Part shown: positions 3,808 through 21,541 of the stretch, piece by piece
Position numbering within the stretch: position 1 is the first letter of the stretch
Layout of the letters: every line of letters begins with the position of its first letter
DNA from: Desulfovibrionaceae bacterium
GTDB lineage: Bacteria; Desulfobacterota; Desulfovibrionia; Desulfovibrionales; Desulfovibrionaceae
Reading direction: 5' to 3'
NCBI GenBank assembly: GCA_015233395.1
Contig: JADFXV010000034.1
Location: 1 to 32,512, forward strand
DNA length: 32,512 nt
The notes under the pieces: generated by a model
What the model was told of the DNA's origin: nothing
The model's input: the letters and a program-made list of their open reading frames with translations, nothing else
The model's database searches: none
Program-made: the position numbers and the translations under genes

Positions 3808-3848
3808 TCCGGCCCGTTGGGCAAGTTCGTGGAGGAAGGAAGGAACCA

Positions 3849-3876
3849 GGGGGAAGGGACTGCGCCCCTTGCCCCC
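3849..3876. repeat. G/C hairpin between cbpB and the HIT gene
   Basis: GGGGGAAGGG pairs with the CCCCTTGCCCCC stretch across a small loop with one bulge. It starts just behind the cbpB stop codon and resembles the AAGGGGCGCAGCCCCTT hairpins near 6000 and 13400. It may weakly terminate cbpB transcription; there is no T run on either side. Confidence 0.35.
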
Positions 3877-3881
3877 GGTCT

Positions 3882-5294
3882 TCATATCATGCGCAGGTCG
3901 AACACGGTTTCGGCGTCGGCGTCCCAGCCGTCCCAGAGGAAATCATCGTGGCGGCCCTCGGCGATCAGGCGCAGGGCGTAGCGCGCCTGGCGTTCGTAGA
4001 AGCGGCAAAAAGCCCCGGGCCGGTCCATGCCGCCGTTCATTTCGACGGCTTCGGCCGGGCAGGGCGAGCCGCAGAAATGGCGCACGGCGCAGCGCTTGCA
4101 CGGTTCGATGTCCTCGACCTTGCGGCCGGTGACTTTGGCGAAGGCCGGGGACTTAAGAATATCCGGGATCTGGTCGTCAAACAGGTTGCCGCCCCTAAAA
4201 TCGGGCAGGCCGACGAATTCGCTGCACGGGAACACGTCGCCGCCGGGCGCGAGCGCAAAGAAGCAGCGTCCGCCGCCGCAGGGCGAGATGTCGCACATGA
4301 GCCGGCGGGCCGTGGGCGCGACGACGCCGAGGATGATGTTGGCGAAATTGGCCACCACCAGCTTGCGGCCGGTCTTGCGGTAGAGCTCGTGCGTTTTTTC
4401 CAGGGCCTTGACGAACCAGGTCGCGGCCTCTTCGTCGCCGGGCTTGATTTCGCGCGCCCCGGGCAGGGTGCAGCGCACCATGTTGAGCAGGCAGGCCGGG
4501 ACTTCGTTTTCGTGGAAATATTCGGCGATGCCGGGCAGGGCGCGCAGGTTCCGCGAGGTGACGGTGCAGATCACGTTGAAACCGGGATAGCCGCGCAGCT
4601 TTTTCATGGCCGCGACGACTTTTTTCGAGACGCCCTGGCCGTTCCAGTTGACCCGCGCCCGGTCGGCGACCGCGGCGGTGCGGCCGTCGAGCGAAATGCC
4701 GACGCCGACGCCCCGGCCGGTCAAAAACGAAATGGCCTCGTCGTCGAGCAGGGTGGCGTTGGTCTGCACGCCAAAACGCATCCGGTCGTCGAATTTCTCG
4801 ATGCCCGCGAACACCGCCTCGCGGTTGAGCAGCGGTTCGGCGCCGTGGAACACGATCTGGGGCAGGCGTCCCTCGGGCATGACCGAACGGAAATGTTTTT
4901 CAAGAATTTCCAGGGCTTCGAGCAGGCGCGCGGTGCTCATGTGCTCGCCGTGGGCGCGCATGTCCGCCGGGATGTAGCAATAGGCGCAGTTGAGGTTGCA
5001 GCGCTCGGTGGGGTTGAAATAGACCGCCGAGGGCGTCAGGCCGAAGCGCAGCCCCTCCATCTGGGCGGCGAAGACTTCGGCCTTCTCCAGATAGGCGGCG
5101 AGGAAACGCTTGCCGGTCAGGACATCGGCGAGCGAGTCCTTGCGCACGAGCGACCAGAAGGCGGTGTCCGGCTCGACCACGGCCAGGTAGTCAGGGTGTC
5201 CGATGTCGATGGGCGAGAACGTCGGGCCGATGCCGGTATTGGCCAGGCGGCCCGAGGGCCGGGCCGCCTGGGTTTGCGTGTCCGCAATCGGCAT
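3882..5294 (-). CDS. cbpB: peptide-modifying radical SAM/SPASM enzyme, CbpB type
   Basis: This 470-residue protein is a radical SAM enzyme with a SPASM-like C-terminal region. The S-adenosylmethionine iron-sulfur motif CxxxCxxC is CNLNCAYC with C99, C103 and C106. It is followed by HGAEPLLN and QTNATLLD, as in sulfatase-maturase-like peptide modifiers. Nine cysteines at about 334, 339, 344, 357, 399, 402, 408, 412 and 430 can hold two auxiliary clusters. The family has the recalled name CbpB, the partner of the short precursor CbpA; here a 34-residue peptide gene lies directly upstream and shares one base with it (TGATG). That overlap fixes the start at 5294 rather than the longer frame to 5405. 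The likely role is a radical-based change in the peptide, perhaps at its single Cys; the actual chemistry is unknown. The pair sits behind a cobalamin riboswitch. The enzyme shows no B12-binding domain. Confidence 0.88.
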   Translation of the reverse strand: MPIADTQTQAARPSGRLANTGIGPTFSPIDIGHPDYLAVVEPDTAFWSLVRKDSLADVLTGKRFLAAYLEKAEVFAAQMEGLRFGLTPSAVYFNPTERCNLNCAYCYIPADMRAHGEHMSTARLLEALEILEKHFRSVMPEGRLPQIVFHGAEPLLNREAVFAGIEKFDDRMRFGVQTNATLLDDEAISFLTGRGVGVGISLDGRTAAVADRARVNWNGQGVSKKVVAAMKKLRGYPGFNVICTVTSRNLRALPGIAEYFHENEVPACLLNMVRCTLPGAREIKPGDEEAATWFVKALEKTHELYRKTGRKLVVANFANIILGVVAPTARRLMCDISPCGGGRCFFALAPGGDVFPCSEFVGLPDFRGGNLFDDQIPDILKSPAFAKVTGRKVEDIEPCKRCAVRHFCGSPCPAEAVEMNGGMDRPGAFCRFYERQARYALRLIAEGRHDDFLWDGWDADAETVFDLRMI

Positions 5295-5398
5295 CAGCGG
5301 GCCTTTTTGTCCATGAGAATGTAGTGCGACAGGCCGGTGCCGTCGGCCTTGCAGGCCTTGCGGAAGGCGATCACCACGGGTTTCTTGGCTTTCTTCAT
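5294..5398 (-). CDS. cbpA: 34-residue modified-peptide precursor, CbpA type
   Basis: The translation begins MKKAKKPVVIAFRKAC and ends GTGLSHYILMDKKAR. It is 34 residues long, with one cysteine (C16), a basic N-terminus, and a Gly-rich GTGLSHYI segment that I recall as the conserved core of CbpA peptides. A very strong ribosome-binding site, AGGAGGTG at 5403-5410, stands five bases before the ATG. The stop codon overlaps the cbpB start by one base, so the two are translationally coupled. There is no signal peptide and no double-Gly leader, and no exporter or protease gene lies next to it, so the product may stay in the cell. The gene is shorter than most gene finders accept. Substrate status is inferred from position, coupling and family resemblance; the modification is unknown. 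Confidence 0.85.
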   Translation of the reverse strand: MKKAKKPVVIAFRKACKADGTGLSHYILMDKKAR

Positions 5399-5410
5399 AC
5401 TTCACCTCCT

Positions 5411-5546: not shown

Positions 5547-5583
5547 AAAAAAAGGGCTCCGACGGTGTAAGCCGCCGAAACCC
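5547..5583 (-). terminator. intrinsic terminator behind the cobalamin riboswitch
   Basis: On the minus strand, GGGTTTCGGCGG pairs with CCGTCGGAGCCC across a 6-base loop and runs into TTTTTTT. It stands about 30 bases behind the riboswitch aptamer and about 150 bases before cbpA, the right place for attenuation: with B12 bound, transcription should stop before cbpA-cbpB. The B12 response is inferred from the usual behaviour of such riboswitches. Confidence 0.8.
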
Positions 5584-5613
5584 TTTGCCATCGGATTTCG
5601 AAAATATAATGTC

Positions 5614-5775
5614 GCGACAGGTCTTCTGGCTCTCGGATCAAGCGCGCGAAGGCAGCCTTCCCAAGGGATTTCCCCTCAGTGACCGGCGTAACGCCAAGCC
5701 TTCACGCGTCCCCGATTACAGCGGCGGGTCCGCCACGGAATTGCACCGTGTTCCTGGATGTCGGCAACAAGTCGC
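5614..5775 (-). promoter_or_regulatory. cobalamin (B12) riboswitch
   Basis: The minus strand carries the landmarks of the adenosylcobalamin aptamer in order: GGAACACGGTGCAATTCCG, GGACCCGCCGCTGTAAT, GTCACTG, GGGAAGG, and the B12 box AGAGCCAGAAGACCTG. A closing stem of GCGAC (5' side, near 5775) with GTCGC (3' side, near 5614) gives the approximate borders. It is followed by an intrinsic terminator and then cbpA-cbpB. No B12 synthesis, transport or B12-dependent enzyme gene follows, so the controlled unit appears to be the peptide cassette. Confidence 0.92.
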
Positions 5776-5816
5776 ATTTACCCGATATCTCCGGCGGGAG
5801 TCAAGACGGGAAAAGA

Positions 5817-5836: not shown

Positions 5837-5902
5837 CTCCTAGAGGCCAGGCGTCGAGCGCCGGCCGTTCAGACATCCATCGCCACACCCTGTCGTGGGG
5901 GT

Positions 5903-6006
5903 CCGGGGGCGATCATCGCCCCCGGCGGGGTCCAGGGGCAGCGCCCCTGGCGGGGTCCGGGGCAGCGCCCCTGGGCGGGGATTCCAAAGGGGCGCAGCCC
6001 CTTTGG
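5903..6006. repeat. row of four G/C hairpins
   Basis: Four hairpins stand in a row: 5903-5925 (arms around GATCATC), 5932-5950 (CAGGGGCAGCGCCCCTG), 5957-5974 (GGGGCAGCGCCCC) and 5984-6006 (CAAAGGGGCGCAGCCCCTTTG). They lie behind the stop codon of the nucleotidyltransferase gene and in front of the riboswitch. They may jointly act as a transcription block or protect the 3' end; none has a T run. Confidence 0.55.
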
Positions 6007-6018
6007 CCCCCGGAGGGA

Positions 6019-8688
6019 TTATTCCCCCGGCCCGACGTCGAACCCGCCCCGGGCGATTTTTTCGGCCAAGGCCAGTTGGTCGGCGCGGCAATCGGCGGCG
6101 CCGTCGATGCGTGCGGCTCTGACTTGGGAGAGGATGGCGCCGAGCGCGGGGCCTGGGGCGACGCCCAGGTTCACCAGGTCTTGGCCGGTGATTTCGATTT
6201 TGAGGCCGCGCAGTTTGGTCAGGTAGAGCGAGATGTGTTTGCGGATGTTTTCGTTCTTGTTGCGGGCCATGAGGTAGAGCACGCCTTCCAGGGGTAATAT
6301 TTCAAGGATGGCGGACAGTTCGCTTAGGCGGCCCTTGCGGTATTCCCAGGTTGTGATCTTGTTGGCCGTGCCGCGGATGGCCTGGCGCAGGACGGTGAAT
6401 TCCCTTTCCGCGCGTTTGGTGAAGTGCAGGCGTTTGCCGGCCAGGGCGGCCTGTTCATCGTCGAACCCGGCGACCAGGGCGAGCAGCCAGACGCGCCATT
6501 CCTCGACCGGCGGCGCGAGGTAGAGCAGGCGTTGCCAGTTCAGGACGGTTTCGACTTCTTCGAGCAGGGCGATTTTGGGGCTGTCCAGGTCGAGCAGGGG
6601 ATGGATGGCGATGAGCAGGCCGAACTGGCTCATGCGGCGCAGGCAGGCGAGCGGCGAGGCCTCTTCCAGGATGAGCAGGATCTCGCGGAACAGGCGCGCG
6701 CCCGAGAGTTTGCGGAAAAAACCGAGTTCCACGGCGTTTTTGATCAGGCGTTCGGCCGTCTGGCCGATGCGGAAGCCGAAGCGCTGCTCGAAGCGGATGG
6801 CCCGCAGGATGCGGGTCGGGTCTTCGACAAAGGACAGCGAATGCAGGACGCGGATGACGCGTTCCTTGATGTCGCGCTGGGCGCCGAAGAAATCGGCCAG
6901 GCGGCCGAACTCGCCGGGATTGAGATGCACGGCCAGGGCGTTGATGGTGAAGTCGCGGCGGTAGAGGTCCATCTTGATCGAGGATAGTTCGACCGTGGGC
7001 AGGGCGGCCGGGTATTCGTAGTATTCCAGGCGGGCGGTGGCCACGTCGATCTTGCGGCCGTTTTGCAGGATGACGACGGCGGTCTTGAATTTGTGGTGCG
7101 CCTTGACCCGGCCGCCGAGTTTTCCGGCCAGGGCGTCGGCAAAGGCGATGCCGTCGCCCTCGACGACCAGGTCGAGGTCGAAATTGTCCTGGTGCAAGAG
7201 GATGTCGCGCACGAAGCCGCCCACGGCGTAGGCGCAAAAGCCCATGGCCTGGGCCAGTTCCCCGGCCTGGCGCAGGATGGCCAGCAGATTTTCGGGCAGT
7301 CGGTCGCGCAAGAGCGTGGCGATGTTGCGTTCGTGCTTGCGTTCGGGGAGCAGGGATTCCGGGATGCGGGCCGGTTCCTGGATCAGGGTGTTGATCAGGT
7401 CGGTGCGGGTGACCACCGCCGCGACTTCTCCGTTTTCCAGCACCGGCACCAACCGTTGCCCCTGGCCGAGAACGATTTCCATGACCGGATAGAGATCGGT
7501 GTCCGGGGCGACGGACGCCGGTTCGCGCTGCATGTATTCGCTGACCGGCATCTTGCCCAGGCCGTGTCCCAGGGCCTTGGCCGCCAGGCCGCCCTCGATC
7601 AGCCCGGCCAGGACCATGGAGCCGGTCCGGGTCACGGGCATGGCTTTGAGTCCGTAACGGTTCATGATCTCGACCGCCTCGGCGATCGGCCGGTCCTCGG
7701 TCACGGTCACGGGCGGGCGGCTGGCGATCTGGCGGACCAGGATCTGCGGATTGATCTGGGAATAGAGCAGGGCGAAGAGTTCCTCGCGCGCCTGGGTCAG
7801 GGTCTTGTCCTTGATCGAGGCCGAGGCGGCGTAGGGATGGCCGCCGCCGCCAAGCGAGGTGCAGATGCGCCCGACGTCCACGTCGGCGCTGCGCGACCGG
7901 GCGACAAGATGCACCCGGTCCTTCATGCGGCCGAGCGCGAAAAGCACGCGGATGTTCTGCATGTCCATCATCTTGTGGACCAGCAGGGCGAAATCGCCCA
8001 CGTAGTGTTCCGTGCTGGCCTGGGTGATGACCACCTCGATGCCGTTGATCTTGTGGGTCTGGGCGGATTCGAGCAGTTCCGAGAGCAGCGTCACCTGCTC
8101 GGCCGACAGTTCGCGGGTGAGCAGATCGGCGATGACGTTGAGGTCCATGCCTTGGCCGCGCAGCCAGGCGGCCGCCTCCAGATCGTACTGGGTGGTGGAG
8201 TTGAAGGTCAACGAGCCGGTGTCTTCGTAGATTCCAAGCCCTAAAATGGTGGCCTCCTCGACGCCGAGCGGCACGCCGCGTTCGCGGATGTACTTGACGA
8301 GGATCGCCGTGGTCGACCCCCAGGGCAAGACCACGGCGCGTTCCATGGGCAGATCGTCCTCGGAATCGGGATGGTGGTCGAAGGCCTCGATGATCAGCCC
8401 GGGCTTGTCGAGAATCGGCGCTACGTGCGCCACCCGGGAGCGCTGGCGCGTGTCGACCAGCACCAGCCGCTTGACCGACTGTTGGTCGATGTCCTTGAAG
8501 GCCTTGAAATTGAAGAGATAGGTGGCGCTTTGCAGGAAAAAAGAGCGGATGTTCTTTTCCTGCGACCCGGGAAAGATGAGCGCCGCCTCGGGATAGAGCT
8601 TGCCGGCCCCGACCATGGCCGCCAGGGCGTCGAAATCGGCGTTGTTGTGGGCGGTGACGATCGTCTCGGCCTGGATTTTACCGGTCAT
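6019..8688 (-). CDS. DHH-CBS-polyA-polymerase fusion: tRNA nucleotidyltransferase (CCA- or A-adding)
   Basis: This 889-residue fusion has three parts. First is a DHH/DHHA1 phosphoesterase region with FDHHPDSEDD (D104-H106) and GGGGHPYAA at about 280. Second is a pair of CBS domains at about 320-440. Third is a class II nucleotidyltransferase with GGFVRD (490-495), the metal-binding D504-L-D506, RRDFTINALAVH and EDPTRILRAIRFEQRFGF. The C-terminal part finishes the 3' CCA end of tRNAs. Fused enzymes of this layout are known; in Aquifex a similar protein adds only the final A, so CCA versus A-only cannot be decided from sequence. The DHH part could act on small phosphodiesters or nano-RNA, and the CBS pair could sense adenosine nucleotides; both are inference. 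The start at 8688 opens with MTGKIQAETIVTAHNNADFDAL, the usual DHH beginning. It is divergent from the next gene. Confidence 0.9.
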   Translation of the reverse strand: MTGKIQAETIVTAHNNADFDALAAMVGAGKLYPEAALIFPGSQEKNIRSFFLQSATYLFNFKAFKDIDQQSVKRLVLVDTRQRSRVAHVAPILDKPGLIIEAFDHHPDSEDDLPMERAVVLPWGSTTAILVKYIRERGVPLGVEEATILGLGIYEDTGSLTFNSTTQYDLEAAAWLRGQGMDLNVIADLLTRELSAEQVTLLSELLESAQTHKINGIEVVITQASTEHYVGDFALLVHKMMDMQNIRVLFALGRMKDRVHLVARSRSADVDVGRICTSLGGGGHPYAASASIKDKTLTQAREELFALLYSQINPQILVRQIASRPPVTVTEDRPIAEAVEIMNRYGLKAMPVTRTGSMVLAGLIEGGLAAKALGHGLGKMPVSEYMQREPASVAPDTDLYPVMEIVLGQGQRLVPVLENGEVAAVVTRTDLINTLIQEPARIPESLLPERKHERNIATLLRDRLPENLLAILRQAGELAQAMGFCAYAVGGFVRDILLHQDNFDLDLVVEGDGIAFADALAGKLGGRVKAHHKFKTAVVILQNGRKIDVATARLEYYEYPAALPTVELSSIKMDLYRRDFTINALAVHLNPGEFGRLADFFGAQRDIKERVIRVLHSLSFVEDPTRILRAIRFEQRFGFRIGQTAERLIKNAVELGFFRKLSGARLFREILLILEEASPLACLRRMSQFGLLIAIHPLLDLDSPKIALLEEVETVLNWQRLLYLAPPVEEWRVWLLALVAGFDDEQAALAGKRLHFTKRAEREFTVLRQAIRGTANKITTWEYRKGRLSELSAILEILPLEGVLYLMARNKNENIRKHISLYLTKLRGLKIEITGQDLVNLGVAPGPALGAILSQVRAARIDGAADCRADQLALAEKIARGGFDVGPGE

Positions 8689-21463: not shown

Positions 21464-21541
21464 TGGTCGGGATGAGAGGATTCGAACCTCCGGCCTCTGC
21501 GTCCCGAACGCAGCGCTCTAGCCAAGCTGAGCCACATCCCG
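21464..21541 (-). tRNA. tRNA-Pro (CGG)
   Basis: The minus strand folds as a tRNA: acceptor CGGGATG with CATCCCG, D-arm GCTC/GAGC, anticodon arm CTGCG-TTCGGGA-CGCAG, and T-arm GGAGG-TTCGAAT-CCTCT. The anticodon CGG reads the proline codon CCG, which is frequent in this GC-rich genome. Discriminator A and a genomically encoded CCA end follow the acceptor. Length is 78 including CCA. Confidence 0.97.

Follow-up and report, generated by a model that had tools for sequence, protein, structure and literature searches.

Cobalamin riboswitches ahead of a precursor peptide and its radical SAM/SPASM maturase: a candidate module of B12 and cobalt homeostasis in bacteria and archaea

Why would a cobalamin riboswitch stand ahead of a gene for a very small peptide? 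We asked this question for a contig of a Desulfovibrionaceae bacterium (JADFXV010000034.1), analyzed as a single window of 32,512 nucleotides. A sequence-only reading of this DNA had proposed a B12 aptamer and, about 150 bases ahead of a peptide gene, a terminator. Both were found. The search with cmscan placed a full-length RF00174 aptamer at 5599..5789 on the minus strand (73 bits for a gathering score of 31.5, E 2.2e-16, model positions 1-189 of 189). R1, a model of related riboswitches of this kind, gives it 137.1 bits, with the window among its 22 training sequences. Some 12 nt past the aptamer, at 5551..5586 (minus strand), lies a putative intrinsic terminator with a 15-pair hairpin and a U run, and the ATG of the peptide gene follows at 5398, around 150 nt past the hairpin. 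The span first proposed for the element, 5547-5775, was thus in the right place and slightly short, since aptamer and terminator together cover 5551-5789. The 66 nt of the terminator stretch fold at -27.4 kcal/mol (z -2.64), and 1 of 200 shuffles did equally well. As the pattern scan returned 4 sites overall for 4.0 expected, the terminator call rests on position, stem length and conservation. In the computed fold of the nascent RNA, the 5' arm of the terminator pairs with the upstream leader instead. Further upstream, the intergenic region between the riboswitch and a tRNA nucleotidyltransferase gene has a G/C-rich run of near-repeats (5890-6020).

The genes behind the riboswitch match a pair of families that is already curated. 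After an AGGAGG ribosome-binding site read from the sequence (5405..5410, minus strand) comes cbpA (5294..5398, minus strand), encoding a 34-residue precursor peptide with the core RKACKADGTGLSHYILM and matching TIGR04164 (cobo_pep) with 60 bits for a cut-off of 35. Its stop codon overlaps the ATG of cbpB (TGATG), which encodes a radical SAM/SPASM peptide maturase (3882..5295, minus strand) and matches TIGR04163 (rSAM_cobopep) with 681.7 bits for a cut-off of 375. Hence, the locus is a member of the curated peptide/maturase pair. These NCBIfam models are known to us by their names and one-line descriptions, and we read the "cobo" in the names as referring to cobalamin. Such families may be described by Haft and Basu (2011). 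Directly after cbpB and before the next gene, the RNA fold of 3900-3780 gives a strong G+C-rich hairpin (3838..3883, minus strand), a possible end of the transcript that the terminator pattern scan did not flag. The same strand continues with a HIT-domain protein (Pfam HIT), an open reading frame called LapA-like in the sequence-only reading, which has no NCBIfam or Pfam match, and mutS. We considered these three genes as parts of the module and rejected them, the phmmer matches to HIT and MutS being confined to a few loci. In the window, the riboswitch is indeed not followed directly by a classical B12 gene. This had been presented as an anomaly, which it is not, because riboswitch, cbpA and cbpB in this order are the normal arrangement of the curated pair. 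For the same reason, we rejected the idea that only this genome has such an arrangement. The genome has three cobalamin riboswitches, the other two standing ahead of a CbiK-like cobaltochelatase and a BtuC-like permease (open reading frames named by eye), and a partial inventory of its B12 genes lists one CbiC (contig C85) and one CobI (C119). Elsewhere in the window there is a tRNA-Pro with anticodon cgg (21464-21541, minus strand).

To what extent do the two genes travel together? We searched for cbpA with a regular expression that demands a GxxH[YF] motif and a Cys with an Arg shortly ahead of it, so that the constancy of these residues is partly built into the search. Of 106 regions, 102 yielded the peptide. 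Among the other four, L084 and L113 are cut contigs, L210 is a damaged archaeal copy, and the genome of L106 has its cbpA elsewhere; in the 106 regions we came across no intact locus that lacked such a peptide. The motif is GLSHY in 92 peptides, GLTHY in 4, GLSHF in 3 and GLAHY in 3, and the Arg is at -3 from the Cys in 101 of the 102, across phyla. None has a second Cys in the core region. This near invariance of the core (RxxC...GLSHY) argues against CbpA being a diversifying antibiotic. Thr as the acceptor of a thioether was considered and is unsupported, since no more than 63 of the 102 peptides have Thr directly ahead of GLSHY. Among Desulfobacterota genomes, the curated CbpA model (E 0.001) finds the peptide in 38 of 44 with CbpB and in none of 35 without it. 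The six genomes that it missed have peptides with a longer loop, which the regular expression recovered. One Thermodesulfobacteriaceae genome has the two genes unlinked, with cbpB alone at L106 9959-11326 (plus strand) and cbpA at L182 9111-9205 (plus strand), an inverted repeat lying behind the peptide gene; the RF00174 census found no cobalamin riboswitch in this genome.

The second gene of the pair has the features of an enzyme that modifies peptides. CbpB matches both Radical_SAM (PF04055) and SPASM (PF13186) in Pfam, and the cysteines C73, C77 and C80 (CxxxCxxC) are invariant among 28 sequences, as are further cysteines. An AlphaFold model built from these 28 sequences has a mean pLDDT of 92, and its nearest solved folds are CteB, ChlB and anSME. 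It aligns with CteB (5wgg) over 391 residues, the N-terminal part included (Z 34.7, 20% identity). By its cluster motif, SPASM domain and maturase fold, CbpB is a radical SAM/SPASM peptide maturase, and it probably modifies CbpA. By analogy with CteB, the crosslink would be formed at the single conserved Cys of the peptide. One Desulfobacterota genome with a full copy has a second, partial CbpB match (441.7 bits, G207:C108:3091-3861).

The pair is sparsely distributed over a broad range of taxa. CbpB is above the curated cut-off in 10 of 149 genomes of the family and in 36 of 395 of the phylum sample. An own RF00174 element lies in sense upstream of cbpB at 36 of 38 Desulfobacterota loci (35 of 37 besides the window). 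A genome-wide scan left 80 loci, of which 58 (L062-L119) are true CbpB by an identity of 50% or more. Database records assign these to Planctomycetota, Verrucomicrobiota, Omnitrophota, Pseudomonadota, Actinomycetota, Chloroflexota, Nitrospirota, Nitrospinota, Elusimicrobiota, Lentisphaerota, Myxococcota and Thermodesulfobacteriota. With a covariance model trained on 22 cbp riboswitches, in which 11 of 27 pairs show two-sided changes, an own riboswitch in sense upstream was detected at 44 of the 58, one of them weak (L082, 27.8 bits). Since L103 and L119 duplicate L056 and L057 (at a tree distance of 0), which are already among the 38, the two sets together give 78 distinct loci with an own riboswitch. 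The final riboswitch tally drops L084, L103 and L119, the tree drops L113 (partial) and L210, and riboswitch counts leave out L168-L172 (five phylum genomes) and G189. The RF00174 census covered 50 of the 58 loci, with a match above cut-off in 47 of 50 genomes; L112-L119 were covered by the cbp covariance model instead. At two loci a second cobalamin riboswitch was seen on the opposite strand near the first (L062 3292-3426 and L089 5622-5750, both minus strand), and the one in L062 points towards CobU-CobT-CobS.

A terminator-like hairpin between aptamer and cbpA is present in 47 of 65 cbp leaders, to be compared with 20 of 650 mononucleotide shuffles (L082, with no cbpA within the 420 nt tested, was left out). 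The start of these hairpins, AAAGGGTTyCGGC, is often identical across phyla. The 18 leaders without hairpin are all from Pseudomonadota (13) or Actinomycetota (5), so the mode of control may differ in these phyla.

The genomes carrying the module also bear on what its product could be for. Of 80 genomes with CbpB, 65 have the corrin-ring marker CbiC, as do 40 of the 41 among these with high stated quality. In 14 of the 15 lacking CbiC, CobI is below cut-off as well, and these include the isolate Dechloromonas hankyongensis. This weakens a role in cobalt insertion only and suggests that making the ring is not all that the product is needed for.

Upstream DNA was examined at 14 bacterial loci that have no own riboswitch (L037, L038, L067, L071, L073, L074, L076, L079, L081, L086, L101, L106, L109 and L116). 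Searches for a hidden element came up empty at L037 and L038 (to E 10) and at L071, L086 and L106 (to E 0.5), and gave nothing above noise at L071, L086 and L101 with filters off. Neighbor genes were named by phmmer from NCBIfam-checked representatives. B12 or cobalt genes were found in the examined flank of 10 of these 14 loci vs 11 of the 78 with an own riboswitch, the remaining 67 having no B12 gene there (Fisher p 2.9e-5, uncorrected for kinship and with flank lengths that differ between loci). Riboswitch status has only 8 changes along the CbpB tree and B12 neighborhood has 13, and an independent-pairs test on a first labelling was far from significant (median p 1 with 5 pairs, on starred branches); L101 was excluded from its labelling and counted as riboswitch-less in the Fisher comparison. 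The Fisher value thus overstates independence, and we give the embedding in operons as a descriptive result. In a comparison with 22 control loci of unrelated radical SAM matches (L120-L141), B12 genes occur at 18 of the 58 CbpB scan loci vs 1 of 22 controls (p 0.009). The sole such control, L120, holds a CbpA peptide and a truncated CbpB and is a relative; without it the count is 0 of 21 (p 0.002).

The embedded loci place cbpAB inside B12 and cobalt operons. L067 has the run CobD/CobQ-CbiB-BtuR-CobB-cbpA-cbpB-CbiM-CbiQ-CbiO-CbiD. At L073, L074, L081 and L116, BtuF together with CobT, CobS, CbiB or BtuR and a Dph6-like ATPase surround the pair, and at L076 CobU precedes it and a NiCoT transporter follows. 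Another order is CobT/CobS-cbpAB-BtuF-BtuC-BtuR. L142 (the same as L037) and L143 (L038) have CbiC-cbpA-cbpB-CbiM amid a run from CobQ to CbiM. One RF00174 element (50.5 bits) stands at the head of the same-strand run CobQ-BtuR-CobB-CbiC-cbpA-cbpB-CbiM of L143; it is the only operon-heading riboswitch found in the DNA searched at the embedded loci. The B12 genes are further away at L079 and L109, and no B12 neighbor was found at the riboswitch-less L071, L086, L101 and L106. The neighbors common to the embedded forms are genes for cobalt and corrinoid uptake, adenosylation and the nucleotide loop. The salvage operons also have, with the Dph6-like ATPase, an asparagine-synthase-like ATPase without glutaminase domain, which abuts or overlaps cbpA or follows cbpB (L073 2277-3272, L081 324-1274, L116 3489-4475, L074 3977-4927). 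These two ATPases might modify CbpA or a corrinoid.

Archaea provide a second context of this kind. CbpB is above cut-off in 7 of 58 genomes of the archaeal class of L120 (Methanomicrobia per record), with 542-556 bits. All seven loci have cbpA directly upstream of cbpB, and five have CobT downstream. At L209, a ribbon-helix-helix gene, CbiM and CbiQ run divergently; at L203, the examined flank has no B12 gene. RF00174 was above cut-off in none of nine of these archaeal genomes, with one sub-threshold match in G628. Hence, the tie of cbpAB to B12 and cobalt exists where no riboswitch is detected. Ribbon-helix-helix genes with a weak AIRS match lie divergently beside archaeal cbpA (L203 9308-10249, L204 2915-3982, L205 4777-5790, L206 6805-7758, L207 7646-8665, L209 3846-4775; three scanned with Pfam, the rest assigned by likeness). 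The protein, possibly with an AIRS-type C-terminal part, may be a cobalt- or corrinoid-sensing regulator that replaces the riboswitch.

With the pair embedded in B12/cobalt operons and found in this archaeal context, the link to B12 does not depend on the riboswitch alone, and cbpAB very probably belongs to B12/cobalt homeostasis. The riboswitch, the terminator, the peptide, the maturase, their conservation and their placement in B12/cobalt operons of bacteria and archaea can be read from the sequences themselves; we infer the direction of regulation, the modification of CbpA and the job of its product as follows. At high adenosylcobalamin, or another corrinoid, the aptamer would fold, the terminator would form and cbpA-cbpB would stay untranscribed. 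At low B12, the polymerase would read through and the 34-residue CbpA would be made. CbpB, a CteB-like radical SAM/SPASM enzyme, would then install a crosslink, probably via the one conserved Cys. The product would most likely be used inside the cell or its envelope, to acquire, traffic or protect cobalt or a corrinoid when B12 is scarce. Taken as a whole, this B12-repressed module has, in our judgement, an even chance of being the right reading. We favor acquisition and handling because the embedded neighbors are genes for uptake, adenosylation and the nucleotide loop. Counting against it, no exporter, protease or receptor is common to all loci. The sequence-only reading had suggested that the peptide helps to save, replace or acquire cobalamin. 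The riboswitch-less operons and the archaeal loci bear out its part in the supply or use of the vitamin; the three options are not separated, and the neighbors favor acquisition or handling. A more specific and tentative form, somewhat unlikely as such, is that CbpA is a ribosomally made ligand of B12 biology common to Bacteria and Archaea, a tiny crosslinked peptide which, in times of B12 shortage, would bind cobalt or a corrinoid and pass it on to enzymes of import, adenosylation or the nucleotide loop.

The chief rival, itself unlikely, is that the modified peptide spares or replaces B12 as a cofactor or regulator that bypasses a B12-dependent step, much like the B12-independent ribonucleotide reductase thought to be switched on in Desulfovibrio. 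Expression at low B12 is what one would expect of it, an invariant core suits a cofactor or regulator, cbpAB occurs in genomes with and without corrin-ring genes, and both D. vulgaris and Desulfuromonas have B12 elements ahead of nrdDG (PMC545781). Yet no B12-independent isozyme was identified among the conserved neighbors, and those of embedded cbpAB are transport, adenosylation and nucleotide-loop genes. Another rival is a nucleotide-loop role, in which CbpAB would serve the CobT step, e.g., in supplying, protecting or selecting a lower-ligand base. The string cbpA-cbpB-CobT in 5 of 7 archaeal loci speaks for this, as does CobT just downstream in L065 and in the examined flank of L062, L073, L076, L079, L082, L095 and L116. 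However, B12 operons often include CobT anyway, and CbiM, NiCoT, CobB or BtuF adjoin cbpAB at other loci instead, which makes this role quite improbable.

Readings that take the peptide out of the cell, or out of B12 metabolism, fare worse. An antimicrobial or corrinoid-competing peptide, released at low B12 as a weapon or public good, would fit the RiPP architecture and the patchy occurrence of the pair (36 of the 395 phylum-sample genomes). We consider it very improbable, as the core does not diversify and no transporter, immunity or protease gene beyond B12 transport is common to the loci. There is, finally, only a slight chance that an unrelated peptide system picked up the riboswitch and lies near B12 genes occasionally. 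The 67 of 78 riboswitch-bearing loci without B12 neighbor in the examined flank might be seen this way, but the riboswitch is kept across about ten bacterial phyla (as assigned by database records), the embedding in B12 operons is repeated, and archaeal cbpAB has its CobT/CbiM context with no riboswitch.

The operon-embedded and archaeal forms, which tie the module to B12/cobalt handling independently of the riboswitch, lead to concrete predictions that can be tested. The role of the module is open to genetic study, as named isolates carry it (Magnetospirillum fulvum, Rhodoblastus acidophilus and Dechloromonas hankyongensis). If CbpA is indeed a crosslinked ligand that hands on cobalt or a corrinoid, it would be, to our knowledge, the first RiPP known to take part in vitamin B12 homeostasis. 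The available parts of the literature on cobalamin riboswitches and on RiPP or precursor peptides (including PMC545781, PMC9600662 and PMC8326336) have nothing on the cbpAB module, and in the portions searched we found no function assigned to the curated CbpA/CbpB module. The terms TIGR04163, TIGR04164, cobopep and "modified peptide precursor CbpA" occurred in none of the papers among the matches listed.

How does the module compare with known systems? From the NCBIfam CbpA/CbpB pair (TIGR04164, TIGR04163) it does not differ: the locus in the window has both genes far above cut-offs and in the order cbpA-cbpB. The closest characterized likeness is to CteA/CteB, a SCIFF ranthipeptide and its maturase, since the CbpB model aligns with CteB 5wgg along almost its entire length. 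However, the SCIFF maturase model gives CbpB 99 bits for a cut-off of 425, and the 102 CbpA peptides have one Cys in the core region, whereas SCIFF peptides have six in about 45 residues; CteB makes a thioether from one Cys (both according to PMC8326336). We do not file CbpA as a ranthipeptide, a class defined by a thioether from Cys to a non-alpha carbon. Among the deltaproteobacteria, the targets of cobalamin riboswitches given in PMC545781 include cbiK-cbiL, btuCDF and nrdDG. The window locus has the same type of riboswitch, and its genome has CbiK-like and BtuC-like targets too. It differs from this B12 regulon in that the cbp riboswitch has a peptide/maturase pair as its target instead of an enzyme or transporter whose B12 function is known.
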